A stretch of 64,000 nucleotides of DNA from Echinarachnius parma (lineage: Eukaryota > Echinodermata > Echinoidea > Clypeasteroida > Echinarachniidae). Under the pieces are notes generated by a model, which had not been told where the DNA came from, ran no database searches, and was given only the letters and a program-made list of their open reading frames with translations. The position numbers and the translations under genes were made by a program. The stretch is taken from assembly GCA_037951105.1 (NCBI GenBank), contig JBAMJV010001795.1, positions 103,098 to 167,097 of the forward strand, given 5' to 3'. This document shows positions 5,072 through 52,725 of the stretch, one piece after another; position 1 is the first letter of the stretch, and each line of letters begins with the position of its first letter.

Positions 5072-5075
5072 TTAA

Positions 5076-5610
5076 AGGGGTAGTTTAGTTTTGGTAGAGA
5101 GGGCGCTGCACATCACAATTTTTTTGTGAGGTAATGAAAAACTGAGTGTCGAATTTGAGAGAACATGCAATTTTAATGGCAGAATAAACTTTATTTGGTC
5201 AAAATCGACCCAGAAATGGCTGAAATATCAATAAATATATCTGATCTTATAATTATTTGGGGCCCAAATAATTAGATGATTTTTAAAAAAAAATTTAAAA
5301 ATGCTTGAACTTTTTCAAAAATGTTCAAAAGTGTTTTTTAAATAGTTGTTGATGATCTCTCTATTTAATCATTATTTCAATAAAACATCACATGCATAAT
5401 TTTGTATGAAAAATTGTTGAAACCAATGCCTCTTAAGAAAGCGCCCTCTTGTGTTTTAATGGCTCTTTTTGAATGATAACAGGCTTTTTACTTAGTCATT
5501 TGTAATTTTGTATACCTTTCGAGCATGGTGGAGTTATAACTATTAGTTTATAATGTTACTGTCCAGGTTTGGTTACTAAAGTTCAGCCTTACCAAAACTA
5601 AACTACCCCT
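5076..5610 (+). mobile_element. TTAA-flanked MITE, family T1, copy a
   Basis: The element begins AGGGGTAGTTTAGTTTTGGTA and ends with TACCAAAACTAAACTACCCCT, flanked by TTAA at 5072-5075 and 5611-5614. It is 535 bp with no coding capacity. The interior carries the family hallmark gcgccctcttgtgttttaa (near 5443) and gagcatggtggagttataac (near 5521). TTAA duplications are typical of piggyBac and Kolobok; which of these drove it cannot be told from a MITE. Related copies sit at 7189, 12748, 38414, 47508 and 50679. Confidence 0.9.
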
Positions 5611-5614
5611 TTAA

Positions 5615-6670
5615 AAGGTAAAATAACGTAATTGAAAACAATGATGATGCCGTGTTGTGATGTTTTCATATGCTGCCGTTTGATTGTATTAATATTATTG
5701 CAGCCTTACATAATGTACACAGAAATCTCCAAGAATAACTTCGTTTATAATATTCTTGATAAATGTATATATAGCACATAAAAAGATTAACCTTATATGT
5801 TAGCACTGTACAATAATATACTGTAAGAAACAAAACTGGAAACAATACGAGTTAATCTTAGAAACATTCCAATTGAATTGGAGGGTCGAATCAAACTAAG
5901 TAAGCTGTTGGGATATGCATGATTGGCCAATGTGTTTCATTAATATTCAACCCTTTAAAAAAATGATAAGAGCGCTGTATGAACTGACTTTTAGGAATCT
6001 CAAATGATCCTTTATTGCATTTATCAAACAGATACTATATTACCACTCATCGTTTGAGCAATCGTTTCAAATGTATGTTTGTCATCCATACAGCTTATCG
6101 TAACTTATATTTAATGTGCACGCTGATGTACACCTTATACAGTGATTCACCCAAATATCAAAACAAATATAATGCACTCTCTTTCTAAAATTCGTGTTTT
6201 TATAGCTATTTCAGGAACAGTATACATTTACAGACCATAGGTATATATACAAGTTGTTTTTCGTATAGTCCAAACACAGTAATTAACTTTGCCTGCTGCA
6301 GGTATCTTGAAATATATGAACAGAATAATGTTACTTACGAACACACTATAATATTCGTTTCTGTATAACCCAAATGTATCGTATCCCTAGAAATTCCAGA
6401 TTAAACATTTTCTTACATAATGTTTGCAATATCAATGATGTGGATACTATCAATCAACATTAGGCATTCAAATAGTCAGGTTTAAATGTCCACATGTTCA
6501 CATTGAATATATATTTTGTTTTGAGGACACCACTTATAGTGTCGGTGTAAATTTTTAAGAAGTATTTTTACACCCAATAGATTGTAAGCACATTTGTATG
6601 ATCGCATCTCACTTAGAATTGACAATGGACCCCCATATTTCGTGACAGTCACTGTGAATAAATGGTTTTT
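5615..6670. other. AT-rich stretch without supported genes
   Basis: Nothing recognisable was found apart from one GTTACTTACGAACAC motif at 6330. A 69-residue frame at 6594-6803 (+) resembles no known domain. Confidence 0.4.
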
Positions 6671-6894: not shown

Positions 6895-8118
6895 TACTAA
6901 TAAAACATTTGAACTTATTCGATTGACGGATTCTCACCAAACTTAGTCCAAGTATGTTTCTTGGGGCGCCAATGAACTGATTAGATTTTGGGGTCATGAG
7001 GTCAAAGGTCAGAGATCAAAGGAATCATTTTATATTTAAATCGCGTTATCTCAAGAACCGATTGACGCATTTTCACCAAACTTAGTCCAAGTGCTTGGGG
7101 CGCCAATGAACTGATTCGATTTTGAGGTCATGAAGTCAAAGGTCACAGGGCTCATTATATATGCACAAATAGCTATTGATCGCGTTAAAGGGTTAGTTGA
7201 GTTCTGGTAAAGAGAGTACAGTTTTTGTCAAACTGAATTTTAGTAAGAAAATAGTACAAGATTATAGTACAAACTAATAGTTATAACTCCACCATGCTCA
7301 AAATAAAACACGATTACAAATAACTAGGTAAGAGGCCTGTTATCATTAACAAAGAGCCGTTAAAACTCAAGAGGGCGCTCTCTGAATACTCATCGGTTTC
7401 AACCATTTTAAATAAAATATTGTGAATGGATGTTATGTTAAAATACTGATTAGATAGAGAAATTATCAACGACTATTTAAAAAACACTTTTTTAAATTTT
7501 TGAAAAGAGGAAGCATTTTTTTATTTTTTTAACGGCTGGTTCAAAATTGTCTAATAATTGTGGGTCCTCACAATTATTACGAATGGTTATGTTTATGGAT
7601 ATTTCAGCCATTTCTGAACCGATTTTGATCAAATAAAATTCATTTTGTCATTAAAATTGTATGCTCGTTCGAATTTGACACTCAGTTTGTTTATTATCTC
7701 ACGAAAACATGATTTGAGTAGCGCCCTCTATACCAAAACTCAACTATCCCTTCAAGAAGCGAATAATGAATTTGCACCATACTTGGTACATGTATGTATC
7801 TTGAGGCGACTAATAACTGGTTAGATTTTTGGGTCAAGAGGTTAAAGGTCAAAGGGCCCAATATTTATACTAAATACGCTTGTATATAATTGCAAAATCT
7901 CAAGAACTGAATGTCATATTTCAATCAAACTTTGTACCTGAATGTATCCCAGGAAGCCATTGTAGCCATAATATTGTGGGGTCATGAGGTCAAACGACTA
8001 GATCACGTGACTCATTATGCCAAAATAGCTTATAATTGCGATATCTCAAAAGCCAGTTGACAAATAACCATTAAAATTGGTACCTTCATATTGTATTTGT
8101 ATCTTGTAATTTTTACTA
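6895..8118 (+). repeat. Degenerate ~125-bp satellite array
   Basis: Repeated phrases include cgcgttatctcaagaaccga, ttgacgcattttcaccaaac, ggcgccaatgaactgatt and ggggtcatgaggtcaaaggt. They recur at about 6920-7030, 7040-7185, 7755-7910 and 7900-8100. Units are strongly diverged, indicating an old array. It is interrupted by MITE copy b. Confidence 0.8.
7189..7751 (-). mobile_element. TTAA-flanked MITE, family T1, copy b
   Basis: The left end follows TTAA at 7185-7188 and reads AGGGTTAGTTGAGTTCTGGTA. The right end reads TACCAAAACTCAACTATCCCT, with a decayed TTCAA flank. The interior matches copy a in opposite orientation, with agagggcgctctctgaatac near 7370 and ttataactccaccatgctca near 7284. 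It sits inside the satellite array. Confidence 0.88.
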
Positions 8119-12747: not shown

Positions 12748-13075
12748 AGAAAAATGCTTCCTCTTTTCAAAAATATATACCGTAAAATATGTTTTTAAAT
12801 ACTTGTGGTTTATATCTCTCTAACTAATCACTTTTTCAACAAAACATCACATGCATTATATATTTTTGTTAATGGTTGAAACCGATGAGTGTTTAGAGAG
12901 CGCCCTTTTGTGTTTTAACGGCTCTTTTTGAATGATAACAGGCTTTTTACTTAGTCTTTGTAATGTTTTATTCCTTTCGAGCATGGTGGAGTTTTAATGC
13001 AGTGGTGCAGGTTTTTCTTACTAAAAATCAGTTTTTCCAAAACTGTACTCTCTTTTCCAGAACCCAACTATCCCT
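12748..13075 (+). mobile_element. TTAA MITE family T1, copy c (5' truncated)
   Basis: The right half only is present, with the hallmark gcgcccttttgtgttttaac near 12901 and gagcatggtggagttttaat near 12979, ending AACTATCCCT before TTAA at 13076-13079. The left half is absent. Confidence 0.8.
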
Positions 13076-13692
13076 TTAAATGTTAATTTCTTCGTTATCA
13101 TTTTGATTGGGTGATTTCAAAAATAAAACAAATTACATTGAACCTTCACTACTTTCATTTACAGTAAATCAATAATACATCATTCTATTCAGTCCTTAAT
13201 TCAATTGTAAATATTGCTGCTAAGTGAAAAGTTTGCAATAGAGTGGTTATGAATGAGTATACTTTGCTTTCATGTTTAACACCCAGGTGAACTTTGTCGC
13301 GAAGGCTGTCACGAATGCTGCCTTCGGCGAAATCCCCAAAACAGGTACATACTTCGTATTTATATCCTTCATGCATGTACTACAACAGGCTTCGATAATC
13401 TGTTTATAAATTTGCAACATAACAAAGTAAACTGTAAACGTGAAAACGTGACAATACTGCTAACCATGTCATATATTGCATCCATTTTAAATGTGACAAG
13501 AACGAAATAATTATGATGATGGAGGTACTCGTGGAGAAAGATCAACTGATCAAGGGATATTTGGTTCATCATATTTATCATGTTTTTACCTCGTACAACA
13601 CGCTTCTGTACTTGTGGGCGTATGTCCTGCAATCTTAATTATGAGATGATACGTATATAATACGTATCACCTATTGAGTTTGTTCGAATTTG

Positions 13693-20540: not shown

Positions 20541-21672
20541 AACGAGCGGGGGAGGGAGTGTCCCCCCTCCCACAGCAGGGAGCTTTGGCATTTTTTACAC
20601 TAGAATGGAGCTATCTGGTGCATATCGGAGGTGAAATTCTTAAGTTTTCAAATGATAGAAAAACAGTGAATAGTCTTCAATTATTTTAATGTAATTTGCA
20701 TAAATATGAATAATGCGAGCGAGCGGAGCGAGTTTGAAAATTTTAGCAATTTAACATCGGAAATTGCCATTTGTTTCAATATTATTGTATGGGTATATTC
20801 GTGTTATGTGTAATGATATTGCGTTTTGAAGGGTAATATATAAACACCCGAGGTTGTAGAATATTATATATATACGAATGCGAGCGGAGCGAGCTTGAAA
20901 ATTGTACCAATTTAACATCGGAAATTGCCATTTGTTTCAATATTACTGTATGGGTATATTCGTGTTATGTGTTATGATATTGCGTTTTGAAGGGTAATAT
21001 ATAAACACCAGAGGTTGTAGAATAATATATATATACGAATGCGAGCGGAGCGAGCTTGAAAATTGTAGCAATTTAACATGGGAAATTGCCATTTGTTTCA
21101 ATATTACTGTATGGGTATATTCGTGTTATGTGTTATGATATTGCGTTTTGAAGGGTAATATATAAACACCCGAGGTTGTAGAATATTATATATATACGAA
21201 TGCGAGCGGAGCGAGCTTGAAAATTGTACCAATTTAACATCGGAAATTGCCATTTGTTTCAATATTACTGTATGGGTATATTCGTGTTATGTGTTATGAT
21301 ATTGCGTTTTGAAGGGTAATATATTAACACCCGAGGTTGTAGAATATTATATATATACGAATGCGAGCGGAGCGAGCTTGAAAATTTTAGCAATTTTACA
21401 TCGGAAAATTGCCATTTGTTTCAATATTATTATATGGGTATATTCGTCTATGACTTATGATATGGCGTTATTAAGGGTAATACATGTATATAAACACCCG
21501 ACGTTATGAAATATTATATATGCGACTGCGAGAGGAGCGAGTTTGAAAATTTTAGCAATTTAACATCAAAAATTGCCATTTGTTTCAATATTATTGTATG
21601 GGTATATTCGTGTTATGTGTTATGATATTGCGTTTTGAAGGGTAATATATAAACACCCGAGGTTGTATAATA

Positions 21673-22041
21673 TAGGTTTTCCCATTCATTTTCGTCATTT
21701 TTGTCATTCAATTTCGTCCCGAGAAGCCGAGAATGTGCCAATGCCAACTTCAATTTCGTCTATTGTCGACCAATTTCACAAAAAGTCCATTCAATTTAGT
21801 CGTTCGTCACGCATTTTCGTTGATTACAATTCAAATTCGTCGGTGACAGTTGCTGAACACATCTGTGACTGACGAATTTGAATTGTACTGGACGAAAATG
21901 TGTGACAAATGACTAAATTGAATGGACTTTTTGTGAAATTGGTCGACAATAGACGAAATTGAAGTTGGCATTGGCACATTCTCGGCTACTCGGGACGAAA
22001 TTGAATGACAAAAGTGTTAAAATGAATGGAAAAAAAACCTA
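21673..22041. mobile_element. Near-perfect foldback MITE (TA target), copy 1
   Basis: The ends TAGGTTTTCCCATTCATTTT and AAAATGAATGG...AACCTA are flanked by TA at 21671-21672 and 22042-22043. Almost the whole 369 bp is one palindrome rich in GACGAAATT words, with an asymmetric centre (cagttgctgaacacatctgtg near 21848). It interrupts a satellite unit. Confidence 0.92.
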
Positions 22042-22373
22042 TATTATATATACTGTATACGAATGCGAGCGGAGCGAGCTTAAACATTTTAGCAATTTTA
22101 CATCGGAAAATTGCCATTTGTTTCAATATTATTGTATGGGTATATTCGTCTATGACTAATGATATGGCGTTATGAAGGGTAATATATAAACACCCGAGTT
22201 TATGAAATATTATATATGCGACTGCGAGCGGAGCGAGCTTGAAAATTTTAACAATTTAACATCGAAAATTGCCATTTGTTTCAATATTATTGTATGGGTA
22301 TATTCGTGTTATGAGTTATGATATTGCGTTTTAAAGGGTAATATATAAACACCCGAGGTTGTAGAATATTATG

Positions 22374-22520: not shown

Positions 22521-23072
22521 TTTTATAAAACGAGCTCAACCACGGATTGTTTTATTTTGCTGGATTATTGAAAACCGACTTGCCACAATTAGTAACCCAG
22601 TCTATCTATTCTCCTGAGTATGAATTTATTAGGACTTTACAAAATTAATCATCACTTCTGCACTCGCTTCACTGAATTTGACTCTGAAGCTCAGCAGATC
22701 ACACGCATGCAGTCCACCAGAAATTGCCGAAACAAATTCCCGTACAAATGAGAATTATCAAAGAATTTCATGCATTTCCATTCCAAAACTTACCAATATC
22801 AAACCACATACCATAGTAATTTACGAAACTGCTAAGATGTATTTACTACAATACAGATAATTTACAAAACGAAGCTTTTTCCATCTGTTTTTCCTTCACT
22901 TTCGCAAGTTTGTCTCCGATAGAACTATGTAAACAAGCATTGTGACGTCATAGCCGTGCAAAAAGGTGTGGAATGAAAACGAGTAACGCACCCCGATTGC
23001 ACCCTGTTTTGCACGGTCGTGACATGATTTAACCAATCACGTTACTGAATTTACCAGAGCTGTTTTATAAAA
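22521..23072. mobile_element. ~550-bp insertion in satellite
   Basis: The ends ttttataaaacgagctc (22521) and gagctgttttataaaa (23057-23072) form an imperfect inverted repeat. The interior has a TGACGTCA box near 22942 and no recognisable protein. With the preceding foldback it separates two satellite units. Confidence 0.5.
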
Positions 23073-23634
23073 TATATATACGAATGCGAGCGGAGCGAGC
23101 TTGAAAATGTTAGCAATTTAACATTGGAAATTGCCATTTCTTTCAATATTATTGTATGGGTATATTCGTGTTATGTGTTATGATATTGCGTTTTGAAGGG
23201 TAATATATAAACACCCGAGGTTGTAGAATATTATATACGAATGCGAGCGAGCTGCGCTGCGCTGCGCTGCACGACGGAAAAAAAAAAACAAACAAACAAA
23301 CAAAAACATGTGTTGCCATTGTACTGCACATGACCGTCCCTTTCCGTATACGGTATTTTTCATCAAATTTTCTGTTGGTTTTTCCTTCTCTCTTCTTGCT
23401 CGTACCCTACTTTTAACCAATCAGGAGTGCCATATGTCGCGTGCACTGCGTATAAAATGATTGGGCCTTCACTCTGCAGAAATTGATCATGTTACACACA
23501 AATAATTCAAGTATCCTCTTATTGAAAGTATATTTTGCTTTAGAAAAAATAATAATAATCAAAGGTAGGGGTAGGGATGACCAGGAATTTATGTACAGTG
23601 TCTTTAGTTATTTTTTTATTTTGTATTTGTTTAG

Positions 23635-31257: not shown

Positions 31258-31882
31258 AATTATGTCAGAATCAACCAATCAGCTTATCGAAAATGTTATA
31301 GTACTGAGACAGCACTCCTTAGAATTAAAAGTGATCTCTTAATGTCAATGAATGACCAGAAGATTAGCCTATTGCTCTTACTTGATTTGAGCGGCGCTTT
31401 TGATACTATTGACCATCTGCGGGTGGCGTATGTTACAAACTTTGAAAACCCACTTTTAGATTAATGGTAAAGTTCTTGCATGGATTGAATCATGCTTGGC
31501 TGATAGAAAACAGACAGTTGAAATGGATGATATTGAATCTGATGTGTTCGAGGTACCTTTCGGTGTCCCTCAAGGGTCACGTTTAAGCCCCCTGTTGTTT
31601 ACGTTGTATACAAGCAGACTCCTCACAAATATTCAAAAGGAGTTCCCTACTATTACCTGCCATTGCTACGCAGATGACACACAAGTATATTTGTCATTTT
31701 GTCATAACACACCAAATGAAGAATATTGTATTAGTGTTTTAGAAACATGCATTGAGTACATTAGAACCTGGATGTTACAAAATAAACTGATGTTGAATGA
31801 TACGAAAACGGAACTATTAGTCACTGGTACTCCACGGCAGTCGGCAGGTATCTAAGTTCAAGTCAAATGGTATATCAGTAGG
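31258..31882 (+). pseudogene. CR1-like retrotransposon RT, part 1 of 2
   Basis: Catalytic reverse-transcriptase motifs are present in order: motif A LLLLDLSGAFDTIDH (near 31377), motif B GVPQGSRLSPLLF (near 31563), the catalytic YADDTQVY (31669-31692) and NKLMLNDTKTELLVTG (near 31783). There are frameshifts near 31430 and 31850. The frame is interrupted at 31882 by the 4.2-kb element and continues at 36094. The 5' end is missing, so the copy cannot move by itself. Confidence 0.92.
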
Positions 31883-33070
31883 TACCCAGGGGGCAAAGGG
31901 GGTTTGTCAGCTTTTGCCTGTTGTAAAAGGTTGGCCACCAGAAATGGCTTCTAGGACCTTCTAGGATCACAACCTAGGTGGACAACCTCGCGGACAAGCT
32001 GCTCGAAGCCCACAGAATGAGTTTTAAGAAAAATCACCCCTACTGTAGCTATATGGTGGGTTTAGGCCTTAGGGGTCATGAAGTCCCGATCTCACATTGT
32101 TCATGATTACACCACGATGCTTAATAATCTCTGCTTGTCAATTCATGGACGTCATCCTTAGATTCCTGCGCATCATATAATACCAAATTTGAGCATATTG
32201 CATATTTGGTTGTTGTGAAAAATGTTGTTAAAGCGTGATGCGTCACACACGGAAGTGACATTTTTAATGGAGCGTTTATGTATAAAAAGCAAATATAGTA
32301 CCAATAATTACAAACAATGATATATTTTGATCAGTACAAACTAAATGTGCATCAAAATAACTTTATATATATGTTAACCATGAAATAAACTGGTTAAAAA
32401 CACTAAACAATAACATAAGCAATAAAAACAAAGAAATACATAAGAATTTGAATCAGTTCATGTAATTATTTCTTTAGATCTCTTCAAAATTACATTCACT
32501 GATACAAAAATGCATCAAAACATAATACATTAACTTTGTTAGTGTTCCATGAATCAGAAACATTAAGAGTTGTGGTGTAGGGAGGGTGGGGGCCCGGTGG
32601 GGGGGGGGGGGGGGGGGGGGGGGCATGACCATGCCTTATTGTTAGTGGACTCCACAACAGTATTAAAATGATCACCATTGGTATTATGATGGATTTAGTG
32701 TGGTCAGGAGACTAAATAAATAGTCAGATTACAGGATATTATTACAGCCGTGGATCGTTTTAACAAAATATACCCAACAATGCTTTCTATGACCTACGAT
32801 AACAACCAGGTTGGACAATTTAACTGCTGAAAGTATGAAGTGAAAATTGAAAAGTGCCCTTTCTATTATACATGTATACTAAACATACTTTCTGAGATAC
32901 GCATACATATTTTGAATGAGAGAACCAGTTATAAAACAGAAGTCCATTATTGCAGATAATAATATCTACCAAGCCAAACAAACAAATACATGCAAAACAT
33001 CAAATGTAAATTGTAGTTTCGGCAAAACATGGTATTATCGCTTTCTGTGAATGATCTTTTCATTTTCTGA

Positions 33071-33370
33071 CTCGCTAACTGATATCACAGATTTCCGCGA
33101 ATTTTCTATTCATTTCTTAAGTCACCAGCTGCTATCACTGATATCCACGAATGTTCTATTCATTTTCTAAGTCACCAGCTGCTATCACTGATATCCGCGA
33201 ATGTTCTATTCATTTTCTAAGTCACCAGCTGCTATCACTGACATCTGCGAATGTTTTATTCATTTTCTAAGTCACCAGCTGCTATCACTGATATCCGCGA
33301 ATGAGTCACCAGCTGCAATCTCTGCTTTTCGCGAATGTTCTATTCATTTTCTGAGTGACTGCTGCTATCA
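33071..33370 (+). repeat. 50-bp tandem repeat at inner edge of left arm
   Basis: Five to six units contain gtcaccagctgctatcactg at 33121, 33171, 33221, 33271 and, shortened, 33305. The right arm carries about three inverted units at 34811-34950. The copy-number difference shows ongoing slippage or exchange within otherwise matching arms. Confidence 0.95.
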
Positions 33371-34010
33371 CTGCTTTCCATTATAGCAGTGCACTGCACC
33401 CTTCTGCACTTGGTTTTTATGCCCTGACAACGGCAGCCTATGTAGCATGGAACCGCCTTCTTTGAGCAAGAACAGTTCTTCTAGCATCCCCTGACACATC
33501 CACACGATAGTGTCTTTTCCATCGATTCAGGCCAGGCTTGTTGTGTAGATGGCACTGGAATTGGTTTCCCATCAGTCAAGGACCATCCGAACTCTGTACA
33601 CGATGGAATGTTTGGCTTGGCGATGTGCGCATTCTTGTCAATGATGGTCGCATGAGCAGCTCTATTTAGGTGCAAGAGGAAAGCATCTTCTGTGGGAGAC
33701 AGCAGCTTCAGGATAGTTGACTTGTTGTTCAAGAACTTGTAGGCTCTCAATTTTTCAAGATCAGAATCTTGATCAAATTGGTCGCTTTTGGTGGTGTACA
33801 CATCTATGGTCAGTTCTCGTGCCTGGGTGATGAGGTCGCCTGTTATGGCATTTGATTGGTTGTCACCATAGTCTACCACTGCAGGTGTGTTTCGTTTCAT
33901 GCTGCTCTAGAGCCATGCTTTCTTGCCGCTGAAGCATGGGTAGCTAGTGGTATCTCTGCCACTCAGACTGCGCATGACACATATTATTGTTAGTGGTGGA
34001 CAACTCTACA
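33370..34010 (-). pseudogene. C-terminal half of transposon protein, XPG/Cys-rich type
   Basis: Read on the minus strand from about 34010, the frame gives SLSGRDTTSY, then KRNTPAVVDYGD (33900), EFGWSLTDGKPIPVP near 33600, and a cysteine-rich tail (CGCVRGC, then after a TAG stop NCSCSKKAVPC and CRCQGIKTKC) down to about 33375. The order DTTS - RNTPA - W.L.DG - Cys cluster follows the C-terminal half of invertebrate proteins with an EADTR motif. There are in-frame stops near 33480 and 33905, so it is broken. It reads outward towards the left arm, opposite to its other half. Confidence 0.7.
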
Positions 34011-34056
34011 TTTTTGATTTCATAGGGAACATGATTGCAGTAATAGTCCTCCATCT

Positions 34057-34812
34057 TTGTTCAAGGAAGACGGCAGTATGAGAAGTGGTACCAATGCTAG
34101 CCTGGTGAAGGTCTTAAAAGAGGAAACCAAAGTGACATGTGTTTCCGATTTGCCTCAGGATGACAACAAAACAGCAGTTGTTGTTGATGCAATGTGTGCC
34201 ATACGGCGCTGGTCATTTCACAAAGGGGAAACATTTGAAGAAATCGCCGAACGGTACACAAATCTGTTGCTGTTGGTACCGAGATCATACACTTTTGTTG
34301 CGACAGATACATTTGAGCCAGCCTGAAGTCTGCTGAGCAGGAACAGAGGTATACCCGATCCAAATTAGCCAAGGTATATGAAGTCAGTGGGCAGTACACA
34401 GCTCCTGATCGACATGAGTTTGTCTCTGTATCAGCAAACAAGGCGAGCCTTCTGAGCTTCCTGTGTGAAAGGTGGTGTGAGAATGAACAGCGTGAACCTT
34501 CTCCTGGCCTAACTCATCTGTACCTTGGTGGCGGATTCAAAGAAGAAATAAAAAGTGTGCTCCTCACCATCACAGGAGGATCTGTGGTGGAAGTTCCAGC
34601 CCTTGAATCTACACAACAGGAGGCTGATACACGGGTCATACTCCACACACTCTACAGTCTCAAGAATGATGGAGTCGACAGCGTTGTCATACATACCACG
34701 GTGCAACAAATTTCACGGATCTCTCAGAGATGTGGTTGAGGACAGCCCATAATGCATACCAACCTATCCATAATATGATTGTAGCACTGGGGCCATCACA
34801 GAAAATGAATAT
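34057..34812 (+). pseudogene. N-terminal/central half of transposon protein, XPG/PIN-like
   Basis: Plus-strand reading gives VVVDAMCAIRRW (34165-34215), with an Asp in the position of the first PIN/XPG acidic residue, then FEEIAERYTNL, an Arg/Ser-rich stretch after a frame change near 34325, GGGFKEEIKSVLLTI (near 34530), the signature QQEADTRVILH (34614-34650) and IHNMIVALGPSQKMNI (near 34760). EADTR resembles the conserved acidic XPG-I motif, which suggests a nuclease fold; this is inference. At least two frameshifts are present. The text stops exactly where the right arm's tandem repeats begin, and its continuation is the minus-strand piece at 33370-34010. Confidence 0.7.
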
Positions 34813-36093
34813 AACATTCACGGATATCAATGATAGCAGCTGGTGACTAAGACAACGAATAGAACATTTGCGGATATCAGTGATAGCAGCTGGTGACTTA
34901 AGAAATGAATAGAAAATTCGCGGAAATCTGTGATATCAGTTGGCGAGTCAGAAATTAAAAAGATTATTCACAGAAAGCGATAATACCATGTTTTGCCGAA
35001 ACTGTTTTGTATGTATTTGTTCATTTGGCTTGGTACATATTATTATCTGCAATAATGGACTTTTGTTTTATAACTGGTTCTCTCATTCAAAATATGTATG
35101 CGTATCTCAGAAAGTAGGGTTAGTATACATGTATAGAAAGGGCACTTTTTCAATTTGGGTAAACATTTCACAACAATCCACGGCTGTAATAGTATCCTGT
35201 AATCTGAGCTCAAAAATATTAAACACAACTACAAATAGAGACTATTTATTTAGTCTCCTGACCACACTAAATCCATCATAATACTAAAATGGTAATCATT
35301 TTAATACTGGTGTGGAGTCCACTGACAATAAGGCTTTGTCATGCCCCCCCCCCCACCCCCCACCGGACCCCCACCCTCCCTACTCCACAACTCGTATTGT
35401 GTCTGATTCATGGCACACTAACAAAGTAAATTTATTATGTTTTGATTCATTTTTGTATCAGTGAATGTAATTTGGAAGAGATCTAAAGAAATAATTACAT
35501 GAACAGATTCAAATTCTTATGTATTTCTTTGCCTGTATTGCTTATGTTCTTTATTGTTTAGTGTTTTTAAATAGTTTATTTCATGGTAAACATATATCTA
35601 AAGTTATTTTGATGCACATTTAGTTTGTACAGATCAAAATATATCATTGTTTTTAATTATTGGTACTATATTTGCTTTTTATACATAACCGCTCCATTAA
35701 AAATGTCACTTCCGTGTGTGACGCATCACGCTTTAACAACATTTTTCACAACAACCAAATATGCAATATGCTCAAATTTGGTATCACATGATGCGCAGGA
35801 ATCTAAGGAAGACGTCCATTAATTTACAAGCAGATATCATCAAGCATCGTGGTGTAACCATGAAAAATGTGAGATCGGGACTTCATGACCCCTAAGGCCT
35901 AAACCCACCATATAGCTACAGTAAGGGTGATTTTCTTAAAACTCATTCTGTGGGCTTCGAGCAGCTTGTCCGCGAGGTTGTCCACCTAGATTGTGTTCCT
36001 AGAAGGTCCTAGAAGCCATTTCTGGCCACCAACCTTTTACAACAGGCAAAAGCTGATATCCGAAAAAAATGGGTTTTTGCCCCCTGGGTAAGG

Positions 36094-36850
36094 TGATACT
36101 GCTATAAAACCATCCCATAATGTGAGAAACTTAGGAGTGTTATTTGATACTCAGTTGAATATGGAATCACAAATTACTAGTGTATGTAAATCAGCATATT
36201 ATATGATTTATAATCTGAGGCGCATTCGTAAATACTTTGATCAAGATAGCATGAAAACTGTCGTCCACGCATGTATTACGAGTAAGTTAGATTATTGTAC
36301 TAGTTTATTGTATGGATTACCAAACTCACAGATAGGAAAGTTGCAGCGGGTTCAAAACACATGTGCAAGATTGATTTGTAATCTTTCTAAATTTGCTCAT
36401 GTTACACCACTGTTAAGAGATTTACATTGGTTACCCATACGTCGAATTGAATTTAAGATGTTAATGATAGTTTATAAAGCGCTAAATGGCCAAGCTCCTA
36501 GTTATATTATTGAATTATTGACTCTTAAGTTTCAAACTCATGGTCATAATCTTCGTAGTACACAAGACACACTGGCATTGCAGATCCCTAAAATTAGAAC
36601 AAAAGTAACCTTAGGTGATCGATCATTTCTTTGTGCAGCTCCTAGAGTATGGAATAAGCTACCTGTGGATATTAGGAAATCTCAAACATTAGAAAGCTTT
36701 AAATTAAAAGTAAAAACTTATTTGTTTTAAACACAGACTTAATTTTTATTTTTTCATGTGATCGAATACCGATATAATGTGTTTAAATAATATGATACAT
36801 AATTTATTGAAAGCTTTTATGTGCCCTATATAAGTGTTGATGTAAGGTAT
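36094..36850 (+). pseudogene. CR1-like retrotransposon RT, part 2 and 3' end
   Basis: An uninterrupted C-terminal part runs to the stop at 36728-36730: VRNLGVLFDTQLNMES (36122), HACITSKLDYCTSLLYGLP (near 36268), LHWLPIRRIEFKMLMI (near 36423) and APRVWNKLPVDIRKS (near 36640). These are the standard blocks downstream of the catalytic site in CR1/L2-like elements. The lack of damage here, against frameshifts in part 1, suggests moderate age. About 100 bp of 3' untranslated sequence follows. Confidence 0.92.
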
Positions 36851-38035: not shown

Positions 38036-38413
38036 ACATGATAACATTTCGTATGCATGGTATATGCTATATTATTATTTTGTAATGCTTCACAATTAAC
38101 TATAATGCTATTATAATGACAAAACTTTTCAAATTTCAAAATGTTCCACTTGTTGCTCATCAACGTGTTTCATCATTCTATGAAGGCGTCAATTTTGCTT
38201 ATACATGTATAACATAAATTTACTTGTAAACTAATTGCTATCCCACATGAATTCACTTGTAATATTACCGTGCGTGGCATTACAGTAAGTGTTACTGAAT
38301 AATATGGATAAAGCCATTACACTTGAAATAAATATTTTGCATAGTAGATGGAAACTGAGAGAAAGAATTTTAAGTGCAGACAAATTCCTAAACACAAACA
38401 AACATTTGCTCAA

Positions 38414-38938
38414 AGGGGTAGTTCATTTTTGGTATAGAGTGCGCTGCACGAAATAATTGTGTGTGAGATAATGAAAAACTGAGTGTAAAGTTAGAAAGAG
38501 CATACAATATTGATGACAGAACAAACGTTATTTGATCAAAATCAGAAACGGCTGAAATATCAATATCCCATCGGACTAAATCTGGGGCCCAGATAGATTC
38601 AATGATTATTTCTTTTTAATTTAAGAAATGCTTACACTATTTCAAAAGTTTTCAAAAGAGGTTTTTAAATAGTTGTTGATGATCTCTCTATTGAATCATT
38701 ATTTTAACAAAGCATCACATGCATCATTTTGTATGAAAATGGTTGAAACAATGTTTTTTTGGAGAGCGCCCTCTTGTGTTTTAATGGCTCTTTAAAAAAA
38801 AAGATAATAGCCTTTTTACTTAGTCGTTTGTAATGTTCTATACCTTTAGAGCATGGTAGAGTTATACTATTTGTTTGTAATGCTAGTGTGCAGGTTTTGG
38901 TTACTGAAGCTCAGCCTTACAAAAACTGCACTACCACT
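38414..38938 (+). mobile_element. TTAA MITE family T1, copy d
   Basis: It begins AGGGGTAGTTCATTTTTGGTA after TCAA and ends CACTACCACT before TTAA at 38939. The interior matches copy a in the same orientation. It is in the last intron of the host gene. Confidence 0.88.
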
Positions 38939-39423
38939 TTAAAATCCTTCCAGAAAAGAAAATAACTGACATAATATACTGTATATATGCATAAAAAAAC
39001 TGACACTGACTATTATTTGCGATATCACATGACTTTTGTATGGAATATCATTTATAGATCAATCATGAACATAAAGATTTTGTTGATTGATGATTCTTAT
39101 AATGGAATTATAATGTTTAATATTTTAATGTAAACGGCGTGACAAATACAAATCTAGATCTATAACTAACCTTTCAATGATAACGGAAAATTTAAGTGAA
39201 TTACCTAGCGACTGACCAGGGCCCATGTTCATAAAAGACCACTAGAGCAGCTCCACGCCTAGTTCCGTGTATAACCAATCACGCCAAAAACATAGTCTAT
39301 AATTTCTCGAAAATTGACTAGATAATAATCAGTGAACGGGTGGGTGGACTCATAGATTGCTCCCCCTATAACTGACAACACGCCTTTCGCGTCGATCAGT
39401 ATTTTAAAAATCCCTCATGTTAT

Positions 39424-47507: not shown

Positions 47508-49155
47508 AGAGGTAGTAGAGATTTGGTAAGGCTGAGCTTTAGTAACCAAATCCTGCACAATATAACTTCAAATTAATAGTAATTATAACCCCATCATGCT
47601 TGGAAGGCATAGAAAATTACAAACGACTAATTAAAATGCCTGTTATCATCAGGGGCGTCGATCCTGGGGGGGCAGGGGGGGGGGGGGGGGCGGTCGCCCC
47701 CCCAATGAAAATATTGGGGGGCGAACATATCATTTCGCCCCCCCAATAATTCCGAAAATGAGGAAGAAAAACATCGAGTGATATAATGGCAAAGAGGGGA
47801 AAGACACATTTATCAATAATTAATCTTCAAAATAGCCGTTTTTTAGTTTGAAAAGGACTGTAAATCTCTTTTTTGCCGCGCGCTTCGCGCGCATACAGTT
47901 TCTCATATTGCAAGTTTCATTTTGGTTGCGGGAACTCACCTTTCGAAATGTGTTGGGCAGTGTCATTTCTTCTCAAACGCACACCTCAAACGAAGTTTAT
48001 TAAACCCTCATATATAGATAGCACACCGTCACAGAAAATAAAATAATCTGAAATATATCTTTCAGTCAATTCGGTCCATATGCGCTGAACACAAATCAAA
48101 TTGGAATATCATGCCCCCCCCCCCCCCCCCCCCCCCCCACATTTGAAAGTGGAGGAGATTGTCCCCCTCCCTTTGTCATTATGTATGTTTGGTTTCATAC
48201 TCATATACTTCATATTACGTGAAATTTCTGTCTCAGATGTGCACCAAATCGCACAATTTCACGCCCAAAAATACAAAAGCTCCCTACTGTGGGAGGGGGA
48301 CACCCCCTCCCACACCCTCCCCCGCTCGGTCGATTCGCTTCCTCGCAATGTCTCTCCTCCACTTTTGAGAAGTTGTTGACTTAGTTTGCTTAGATTCATG
48401 GGAGCCCAATGCCCTAGACTATATCGATGGCTCTATAGTATACAGGATCACGTGGATCCATCTCATGCAAGGCTCAATCTTTTTCTCGCTATGCTCTTTA
48501 AAAATACGTTACGAGTAGGTTCACTATTTTATACAATTTTAACACCCATGATAGGAGTTGCACATGTCTGAAATCTAAAAGCTTCCGGGGGCTCCGCCCC
48601 CTGGACCCCCATTATTGTCCCCAAATGTGGGTGCCCCCCAAATTCAGGTCTTCGAGCCATCAAGACACTTTCAATGAGCGCAAAATAAATGTGGGGCTTT
48701 TAGCTCTCTTAGTGGTCACTCTGGAAAAAATTTCAAATTTCGCCCCCCCAATCGCAAAAACGGATCGACGCCCCTGGTTATCATTCAAAAGGAGCCATTA
48801 AAACACGAGAGGCCACTTTCTAAAAAAGCATTGGATTCAACCATTCGACATACACAATTATGCATGTGTCGTTTTGTTGAAATAATGATTAGATAGAGAC
48901 ATCATCAACAACTATTTAAAAACCTCTTTAGAACATTTTTGAAAAAGTGTGTGCTCTTTAAAAAATAAAAAATAAATCATCGAATAAATCTGGGCCCCCG
49001 ATTGATTCCAATTGGATATATTAAATTATATTTCAGACATTTCTTAACCGATTTAAATCAAATAAAGTTTATTTTGTCATTAAAATTCAGTTTTTCATTA
49101 TCTCACAACAAATATTCTCGCACAGCGCCCTCTATACCAAAACTGAACTACCTCT
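47508..49155 (-). mobile_element. TTAA MITE family T1, copy e, split by hAT
   Basis: It starts after TTAA at 47504-47507 (AGAGGTAGTAGAGATTTGGTA) and ends AACTGAACTACCTCT at 49155. The interior matches copy a inverted. It is interrupted at 47650-48776 by a hAT-type element. Confidence 0.9.
47650..48776. mobile_element. Non-autonomous hAT element, family H1, copy 1
   Basis: The termini CAGGGGCGTCGATCC and GGATCGACGCCCCTG are perfect inverted repeats, flanked by the 8-bp duplication GTTATCAT (47642-47649, 48777-48784). The host MITE sequence is restored on removal. The interior has long G and C runs, GCGCGCTTCGCGCGC at about 47878, and CTTCCGGGGGCTCCGCCCCC near 48583. No transposase was found. 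Confidence 0.96.
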
Positions 49156-49159
49156 TTAG

Positions 49160-50014
49160 TACTTGCTACTTGTTTCTATAAAGTCATAATCATAATGCAT
49201 ATAAAGTAAATTGTCACAAAGTGAATTTCGATGTTTAACAAACAAACGATCATATCACAGGGATGACAAACATAATTATTCTGAATCAACAACCATCGGG
49301 AAGCCTGATTATTTTCCTTTATTATGACACCAAATATGTATATTTTTCAAATTACCATCATACTTTAAACAAATATTTTACAACTATACATACCAGTTTT
49401 GAGACATACACAGTATAATCAATTAAGTCTGGCTAATGTAAGTCAATGGCATGTCTGCGGAGGAGGAAGACACGCTCCCCCTCCCCTGCCCCTCTTCCCA
49501 ATAATTTGACAAAAACTAGTGGTTATTACTCATACCTTATCATATTCATAATTAATACAAGAAACAAGGGCAGGTTTCGGATTTTTAAATTTCCATTTCT
49601 TTCAAAATATATTTATATATTATAGATATATAAATGTTCATATTATTATTGTTCAATTGTCTGCGGGATAACTTTAGCCGTGTTTATAGTGAATATCAAT
49701 TTGCATTTTTGCTCATATCTCAGCCAAAAACTATCCGGTTAACGCAAGGTTTTTACGCCTTTTGCGGACATATCAGACCACACCAATACACATCCGAGTT
49801 TTGAAAAGCAGCGGATCAAATTAAATTTGCATAATGGCGAAGTTCGACAAAAAGCGTCTGTGATTGGTAAAAATTTCTCACCATCGATATTCAGCTTTAC
49901 GTTCGCAAAATTATGATCGATAGCGTGTAAACAAAAGTAAAAAGTCCTAAATAAGTCCTAGTAAAAGTCCAAAAGTAAAAAGTGATGACGTTTATTTTTT
50001 TTTAATGACCCTTT
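49160..50014. other. No supported feature
   Basis: AT-rich. A short internal repetition of agtaaaaagt/agtcc words occurs at 49936-49985. Nothing else was recognised. Confidence 0.4.
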
Positions 50015-50018
50015 TTAA

Positions 50019-50674
50019 AGGGGCCCTGCAACCCAAATGCATGTTGACCTCTGTTCATCTGTATTAGTGTACACATTCAATATTTGTAAACGGTTTGACC
50101 CAAATATGTTTTGTATATTTTTTAACATTTTATCATTTATTTGTCTTCATGTTGCTAAGCCCCACCTCCTAAAAAACCCTCCAGAGCAAATTCTATTGTT
50201 GACCTGCAGTGACATCATTTGTCAATCACTGGTCAGCTACCATGAGATTAACAAAAGATGAAAGTACAAAAGGAACATCCACACAAAAGCATGCCCTGCA
50301 TACCTCCATGCAATAGCTTAGACAGTGCTTTTCTTCTGACATAGCAACAGCTATTGTAATTGAAGTTGTGTGAGTTGGTATTCTATTCAACCGTTTGATG
50401 CTATTGTGATTAGCCTAATCGTTGTGTACTTTCATCTTTTGTTAATCTCATGGTAGCTGACCAGTGATTGACAAATGATGTCACTGCAGGTCAACAATAG
50501 AATTTGCTCTGGAGGGTTTTTTAGGAGGTGGGGCTTAGCAACATGAAGACAAATAAATGATAAAATGTTTAAAAATATACAAAACATATTTGGGTCCAAC
50601 TGTTTACAAATATTGAATGTGTACACTAATACAGATGAACAGAGGTCAACATGCATTTGGGTTGCAGGGCCCCT
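50019..50674. mobile_element. TTAA-flanked MITE with ~245-bp near-identical arms
   Basis: The ends AGGGGCCCTGCAACCCAAAT and the complement are flanked by TTAA at 50015-50018 and 50675-50678. The two arms (to about 50265 and from about 50428) translate to the same 74-residue frame in opposite directions, with only a couple of differences, which shows recent arm homogeneity rather than a real gene. Confidence 0.95.
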
Positions 50675-50700
50675 TTAAAGGGATAGTTGAGTTCTGGTAA

Positions 50701-51823: not shown

Positions 51824-52725
51824 TAAAGAGAGTACAGTTTTGGTCAAACTGCATTTTAGTAACCCAAACCTGCACCATAACATTACAAACTAATAGTTAT
51901 TACTCTACCATGCTTGAAAATAAATCAAAATTGCAAACGACTAAGTTAAAAGCATTTTATCATTCAAACAGTGCCATTCCAACTCAAGATGGCGCTCTCT
52001 AAAATCTCATTGGTTTAGACCATCTAAAATATTGTGCATGTGAAGGTTCGAAAAAATAGTGATTAGATAGAGAGATAATCAACAACTATTAAAAAACTTC
52101 TTTTGAAAATGTTTGAAAAGAGGAAGCATTTAAAAAAAATTCTAACGGTTGGTTCAAAATTGTCTTATATTTGTGGTGCCCCCATTTATTATAAATGGTT
52201 ACGTTTGTGAATATTTCAGCCATTTCTGAACCAATTTGGATCAAATAAAGTTTATTATGTAGCTAAAATATTATGCTCTTTCAAATTTTACACTCACTTT
52301 TTCATTATCTCACAAAAAATTATTTGATGTAGCGCCCTCTCTACCAAAACTCAACTATCCCTTTAATTGGGTGTTATGTTTTTTATTAATATTTATTGAT
52401 GGAGCTTCTTCTTAGCGTTACGACTCGGGCAAAAGGAAACGTCATTGAAATATTGTTATAGCACAGCCATTTTGTAATCCGTAATCTGAAACTACTAAAT
52501 GAATACTGATTTGCTAAAATTATTTTGGTGAAATGAAATAGTACAATTAATTTTAACTTTAAATCCTTTTCAGAATATATATACCCCCTGATATATGATA
52601 ATTACAAACTAGGCCCATAGCTAGAGAAGGGGGTGCGGGGGAGCACTTAACGGGGGTGTGCCTCACGGAACACTGAAATGGGGGTCTTAAGAGCTGACTA
52701 CAACCACAAAATATAGGGTCTTTCA

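Follow-up and report, generated by a model that had tools for sequence, protein, structure and literature searches.

In the genome of Echinarachnius parma we find a family of transposons whose gene is arranged inside out, and which is most probably (about 0.87 by our estimate) a non-autonomous, long-TIR, AcademX-like family with a partly deleted, split and inverted gene that spread in trans. The anatomy of the element, the junction common to its copies, their independent insertions and a normal-order relative with near-identical ends are all directly observed. One copy lies in the stretch of 64,000 nucleotides analysed here (the window, G000:C1794:103098-167097), and related loci, among them those we call type A, were sought in the 1.2 Gb genome assembly of 14790 contigs.

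The window copy is a real element with firm borders (Table 1). Identical 15-bp ends, TACCCAGGGGGCAAA, lie at 31883-31897 on the plus strand and 36076-36090 on the minus strand; allowing up to two mismatches, this end matched twice in the window against a mean of 0.08 in shuffled sequences. We joined both flanks of the host LINE with one AGG and searched the genome with this empty-site query. All 40 LINE copies scored (58 candidates) crossed the joined site uninterrupted, with 88-95% identity. The four copies that were read each show CAGTAGG followed by TGATACT (TAATACT in one) with a single AGG; all four are without 7 bases that the window has about 40 bases to the left, leaving the insertion site unaffected. 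An empty target site is thereby demonstrated for the window copy only. The exact ends, AGG duplication and firm boundaries given in the initial annotation, as well as its view that the host retrotransposon is restored without the element, are borne out by these searches and by the flanking letters.

Table 1 Features of the transposon and its insertion site in the window.
Feature	Position	Strand	Description and basis
Whole non-autonomous transposon (type A)	31883..36090		4208 bp; ends, empty site, length
AGG target duplication, left	31880..31882		flank letters
AGG target duplication, right	36091..36093		flank letters
Host LINE reverse transcriptase fragment, left of insertion	31460..31855	+	RVT_1, E 1.1e-16
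Open frame continuing host LINE right of insertion	36092..36730	+	ORF list, joined-flank search
Left arm (long TIR)	31883..33359	+	inner end is a 50-bp tandem array, 33049-33303, with degenerate continuation
Right arm (long TIR)	34800..36090	-	50-bp array at 34803-34943
C-terminal piece of transposase-like gene	33379..33970	-	about residues 923-1119 of L088 ORF2, among them the Cys-rich end; stops; tblastn and junction alignment
Central piece of same transposase-like gene	33971..34799	+	about residues 625-915 of L088 ORF2; one stop and frame shifts; tblastn and junction alignment
Inside-out junction	33960..33985		common to other type A loci read; junction alignment, 300-bp junction query

Other repeats occur elsewhere in the window: an inverted repeat at 50014-50274 and 50419-50679 (261 bp, 98% identical, 144 bp apart), a dispersed repeat of ~330-550 bp present in both orientations at 68-81% identity (5074-5616, 7208-7755, 12750-13079, 38412-38944, 48777-49158 and 51824-52366), and a tandem array with a 159-161-bp unit (20719-21673 and 22056-22372, with more pieces near 23053-23249).

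The TIRs were first described as ~1.2 kb long, and the two arms indeed align over 1216 bases with 94.2% identity (31907-33218 with 34800-36056), the tandem arrays at their inner ends comprising about five units in the left arm and three in the right. At 32599-32623 the left arm contains a run of 25 G, to which an interrupted C run corresponds in position in the right arm. The arms had also been thought to be homogenised or otherwise kept alike, which a comparison of the outer 620 bp in 15 type A copies contradicts. Mean left/right identity was 95.5% within a copy and 95.4% between copies, lower than the between-copy values for left/left (98.2%) and right/right (97.8%), so that homogenisation is rejected; no column in these 15 copies carries a fixed difference between all left and all right arms. 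This pattern implies that the two arms already differed before the family spread, with no homogenisation since, and the 98.2% likeness of left arms points to a recent spread. The most alike arms (98.7%) belong to L095, which is flanked by CCT and AGG, ends 3 bases before its contig does and may be an assembly foldback; L089 follows with 96.7%.

Between the arms, tblastn with the gene of the normal-order relative L088 matched residues 922-1119 on the minus strand (33379-33975) and residues 641-921 on the plus strand (34018-34819), the latter match being spread across three frames. Aligning the junctions extends the plus piece back to about residue 625, so that it begins at 33971. As these alignments indicate, a single protein is represented in the core by two neighbouring stretches, one on each strand, that both read outward; a Pfam search of the two pieces returned no match. 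The initial annotation had taken the minus strand to hold an outward-reading C-terminal piece and both halves to derive from one gene in divergent orientation, in agreement with these results. Its description of the plus piece as N-terminal/central holds for the central part, and fails for the N-terminal part, the ORF1 portion and the first ~620 residues of ORF2 being absent.

The inside-out order is present in 19 type A loci, namely the window copy, five copies found by their end pattern (L060, L062, L064 with L065, L066 and L079), which were classed as type A by the inside-out order itself, and 13 loci picked solely by a match to the plus piece (L089-L101), every one of which has the split (13/13). 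The type A rows align from about 40 bases left of the junction with a few substitutions, and the only gap there is a base that the window copy lacks. Farther out on that side, gaps or a deletion occur in L090, L093 and L079. With a 300-bp junction query, all 40 loci scored (the best 40 of 266 candidates) matched over bases 1-300 at 98-100% identity.

Residues 880-960 of L088 span the break, and a query with them does not presuppose either order. Among the best 150 of 283 candidates, this split test yielded three contiguous and 147 partial matches. Pairing of the partial matches gave at least 65 inside-out loci on 65 contigs and no normal-order pairs, with 8 central and 9 C-terminal pieces left unpaired. 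Five C-side matches among the 147 start at query position 15-31, crossing the break, with 46-55% identity; the central piece lies on the opposite strand in four of these loci, and the fifth, C10590, is unpaired. The halves of the 65 paired loci are separated by 841-846 bases in 36 cases and by 871-875 bases in nine, which agrees with the presence of two subtypes, A2 and A1, respectively. One A1 copy, L101 (C8200:96900-102300), has two tandem inside-out cores. Several copies with the same breakpoint, the check named at the outset, are thus supplied by the junction alignment, the 300-bp query and the paired loci, and an inversion unique to the window copy is rejected by the latter two. Normal gene order in other copies, the contrary expectation, was encountered in only three of the 150 scored, C1252, C6980 and C11519, all three of which match the distant L088 type at 99-100% identity and lie outside the type A family.

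Target-site duplications show that these copies inserted independently. Perfect 3-bp duplications flank 13 of the 15 type A copies in which both ends are present, in 13 different triplets, the exceptions being L079 and L095; L093, L097, L100 and L101 show one end only and stand outside this count. In the first paired-end set, from which one senseless 2-bp row was dropped, 23 of 30 elements, six of the 30 being type A, had a 3-bp duplication. The misses were L056, L058, L068, L073/L074, L077, L079 and L081, L056 being part of an array that does have matching outer flanks. Across the genome, the exact end occurs 462 times in forward and 465 times in reverse orientation; its reversed control gave 2 and 0. 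Inverted repeats together with a fixed-length duplication at independent sites, the hallmarks of a TIR DNA transposon, are therefore all present. The shared split and the differing duplications imply that the rearranged form has itself transposed, as had been proposed; type A was presumably mobilised in trans by a helper.

A genome search with the plus piece (151 matches, the best 150 of 893 candidates being scored) listed C1252 with an open frame of 1131 aa. This stretch (L088/L102) has overlapping frames of 547 and 1131 aa, which we read as one gene with a frame break, an intron being possible. Its ends, TACCCAGGGAGCAAA, are 7321 or 7884 bp apart, the right end occurring twice, and the duplication is TAC, or ATAC with the inner right end. 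The C6980 copy has the same ends 7143 bp apart between TTT and TTT and is 99.6% identical to the left end of L088 over 254 bp; its open frame where the search matched is just 479 aa long. The third contiguous match, C11519, showed no end within the 401 and 1001 bases read. Under the Repbase rule, as excerpted, elements of one superfamily have equal duplication length and at most one mismatch in the first 11 terminal bases (PMC4455052), and the ends of type A and L088/L102 differ at one position in 11, which places them together. The type A arms resemble L088 over ~330 bp (72%) at its 5′ end but over no more than 133 bp (84%) at its 3′ end. No unbroken helper gene was found among the normal-order copies, given the frame break or intron of L088 and the 479-aa frame of C6980, and no direct normal-order parent of type A was found in the assembled contigs, the known normal-order genes being dS ~0.7-1.1 away.

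We consider it plausible from sequence features that the family is Academ-like, specifically AcademX-like, and do not call it Academ. L088 ORF2 contains the acidic motifs VVVDA at residue 694, CCDRY at 738, EADTR at 844, NDTDV at 870 and SGRDT at 926, in the order typical of FEN/XPG nucleases, and the Cys-rich C terminus of the long protein is presumably another link to Academ. The sole profile to pass its cut-off was PF20231 DUF6589 (residues 185-517 of L088 ORF2, E 3e-8); NCBIfam and the other Pfam rows gave only matches under their curated cut-offs. Neither profile nor PDB sequence searches matched an XPG/FEN domain in the L088 protein, and an XPG_I profile of four rows had no match in L088 ORF2, with weak ones in 180 of 500 shuffles (top 3.3 bits). 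Searched against the genome, Pfam XPG_I hit three places, all on contigs other than those that carry the normal-order copies. PHROGs and phage tblastn searches found nothing, no relatives were found in IMG/VR and GTDB contigs, and the 43 IMG/VR stretches with the 15-mer end contained nothing of the element except one 18-base match (E up to 1).

AcademX elements are described, in the excerpted source, as having 3- or 4-bp duplications, and a nuclease where AcademH has a helicase (PMC10045372). The 3-bp duplications here are within this range. With AcademX, the present family would share the duplication length, the FEN/XPG-like motif order and the Cys-rich C terminus; it differs in having no XPG profile match and in that the window copy codes for no full protein. 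The assignment to Academ in the initial annotation, made from the EADTR motif and the Cys-rich parts, gains from the duplication length and the acidic motif order, while the XPG homology it invoked is without profile support.

The simplest path to type A is a deletion derivative followed by a flip of residues 625-915. An ancestor would have lost the first two thirds of the transposase-like gene, and the remaining 3′ third would have been cut between about residues 915 and 923, with the central piece inverted against the C-terminal piece so that each came to be read towards its neighbouring arm. The inversion may have arisen through faulty gap repair, or through template switching at short homology. 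In the junction alignment, the two L088 edges that would meet at the new junction both have GAAT, which suggests joining at short homology, as judged from a distant relative. The inside-out form would then have multiplied by insertion with 3-bp duplications, probably in a cut-and-paste mode, its trans-acting helper being a full-length element whose ends are almost identical, for example one of the C1252/C6980 type. Because the arms match the L088 3′ end over only 133 bp, deletion plus inversion is an incomplete path; the likeness of the arms to both L088 ends is in line with the TIR growth proposed for Galileo in the excerpted account (PMC3573991).

A second arrangement is found in 26 of the 29 other loci, which we call type B and in which residues ≥686 on one strand precede, on the opposite strand, a stretch lying within residues 404-738, in convergent order; this count includes weak matches, of 30 bits and up. 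The breakpoints differ from those of type A. In three of the 26 (L075, L081 and L086) the opposite piece is limited to residues 489-513, within the arm, and L061, L073 and L085 are without the convergent order, L073 and L074 forming one element. L111 represents a third family, with only weak traces of the gene (E 0.025-0.038) in normal order; it measures 3684 bp, with ~400-bp arms, CTT on both sides and the ends TACCCAGGGAGCAAA, a variant that occurs genome-wide 444 times in forward and 428 times in reverse orientation (control 0). At L056/L057 (G000:C74:16309-27818), three type B elements 99.7-99.9% identical to one another stand head to tail, with a single TA at the first join (GGGTACCC), a third copy without its first bases and one outer ACT duplication. 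The array looks like a multimer that was inserted or amplified as a unit. A perfect end-to-end join, TTTGCYCCCTGGGTACCCAGGGRGCAAA, exists at five places in the genome, the reversed control at none.

These loci bear on the strongest competing account, according to which two inverted elements were mobilised jointly from their outer ends and then deleted or permuted inside, by a composite or circle route. We regard it as unlikely, while giving it real weight: both arms resemble the L088 5′ end, type B looks like two convergent partial copies and head-to-tail multimers exist in the family, but the divergent pieces of type A would need an extra permutation, and one inversion is simpler. Separate capture of two gene fragments in the style of Pack-TIR elements has very little to recommend it. 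Although animal TIR elements do pick up fragments, as the excerpted source reports (PMC8277862), the two pieces adjoin each other within a single protein, ~8 residues at most having been lost between them, and the element to which this protein belongs has almost identical ends.

Also highly improbable is a two-gene element, in which the split halves would still function as separate proteins. Comparison of type A with L088 gave omega values of 0.11-0.20 at dS 0.7-1.1, with a highly significant synonymous excess, and A1 and A2 majority codons compared with each other gave 0.65 and 0.94, with 13 changes each. Within A2, pN/pS was 0.77 for the central piece (15 copies, p 0.19) and 0.69 for the C-terminal piece (14 copies without L064, p 0.13); within A1, it was 0.57 for the central piece (4 copies, p 0.11) and 0.57 for the C-terminal piece (3 copies without L101, 3 changes only). 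These counts carry no transition-bias correction, and those for the C-terminal piece leave out L064, where the piece is cut by an insert, and L101, where it is poorly aligned. The lean below 1 in all four sets (0.57-0.77) could speak for functional halves, as could the A1 copies in which one half is stop-free (the central one in L101; the C-terminal one in L066, L099 and L100), but the synonymous excess is significant in none of the four, none of the 19 copies is free of stops in both halves (for L101, the stop lies in the poorly aligned C-terminal piece) and 14 of 15 A2 copies have a stop at residue 744 in common. Strong selection acted on the gene until it was split, and none is detectable afterwards; the values below 1, none of them significant, would be compatible with weak or brief selection in that later period. 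Finally, a dead, one-off rearrangement of a single copy, to which the broken frames of the window copy might point, can practically be dismissed in view of at least 65 loci alike and 13 different target triplets among the copies read.

Type A, then, is a multi-copy family of the inverted form with a young look. Ds/MITE-type derivatives are likewise non-autonomous and moved in trans, and here at least 65 paired loci stand against three normal-order matches. The usual derivatives of this type are deletions, whereas in type A a gene both split and inverted has become fixed family-wide. Galileo/Foldback elements of Drosophila share the long, internally repetitive TIRs, the defective copies and TIR growth by internal recruitment, but belong to another superfamily, P, and the excerpted account reports no fixed inside-out gene core at dozens of sites (PMC3573991). 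Inversions by TIR-TIR recombination in IS elements also take place inside a TIR element, but there, in the part of the source consulted, the whole interior flips (PMC3004938), while here one of two pieces does. Our literature searches, through the excerpts they returned, found no report of a fixed inside-out core.

If at least two multi-copy lineages, the divergent A and the convergent B, were each founded by an inversion with its own breakpoints, splitting and inverting might be a recurrent product of transposition or repair itself. Elements of this class may then regularly give rise to long-armed, inside-out derivatives more numerous than the normal-order form, whose success could be due to antisense RNA from the flipped pieces that damps the helper. 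We hold this broader idea to be speculative and rather improbable. Type A does show that scrambling of its gene need not keep a transposon from founding a successful family. Clear copies, breakpoints and a candidate helper are all available in one genome, which opens the origin of long-TIR non-autonomous families, ordinarily a matter of inference, to direct test.
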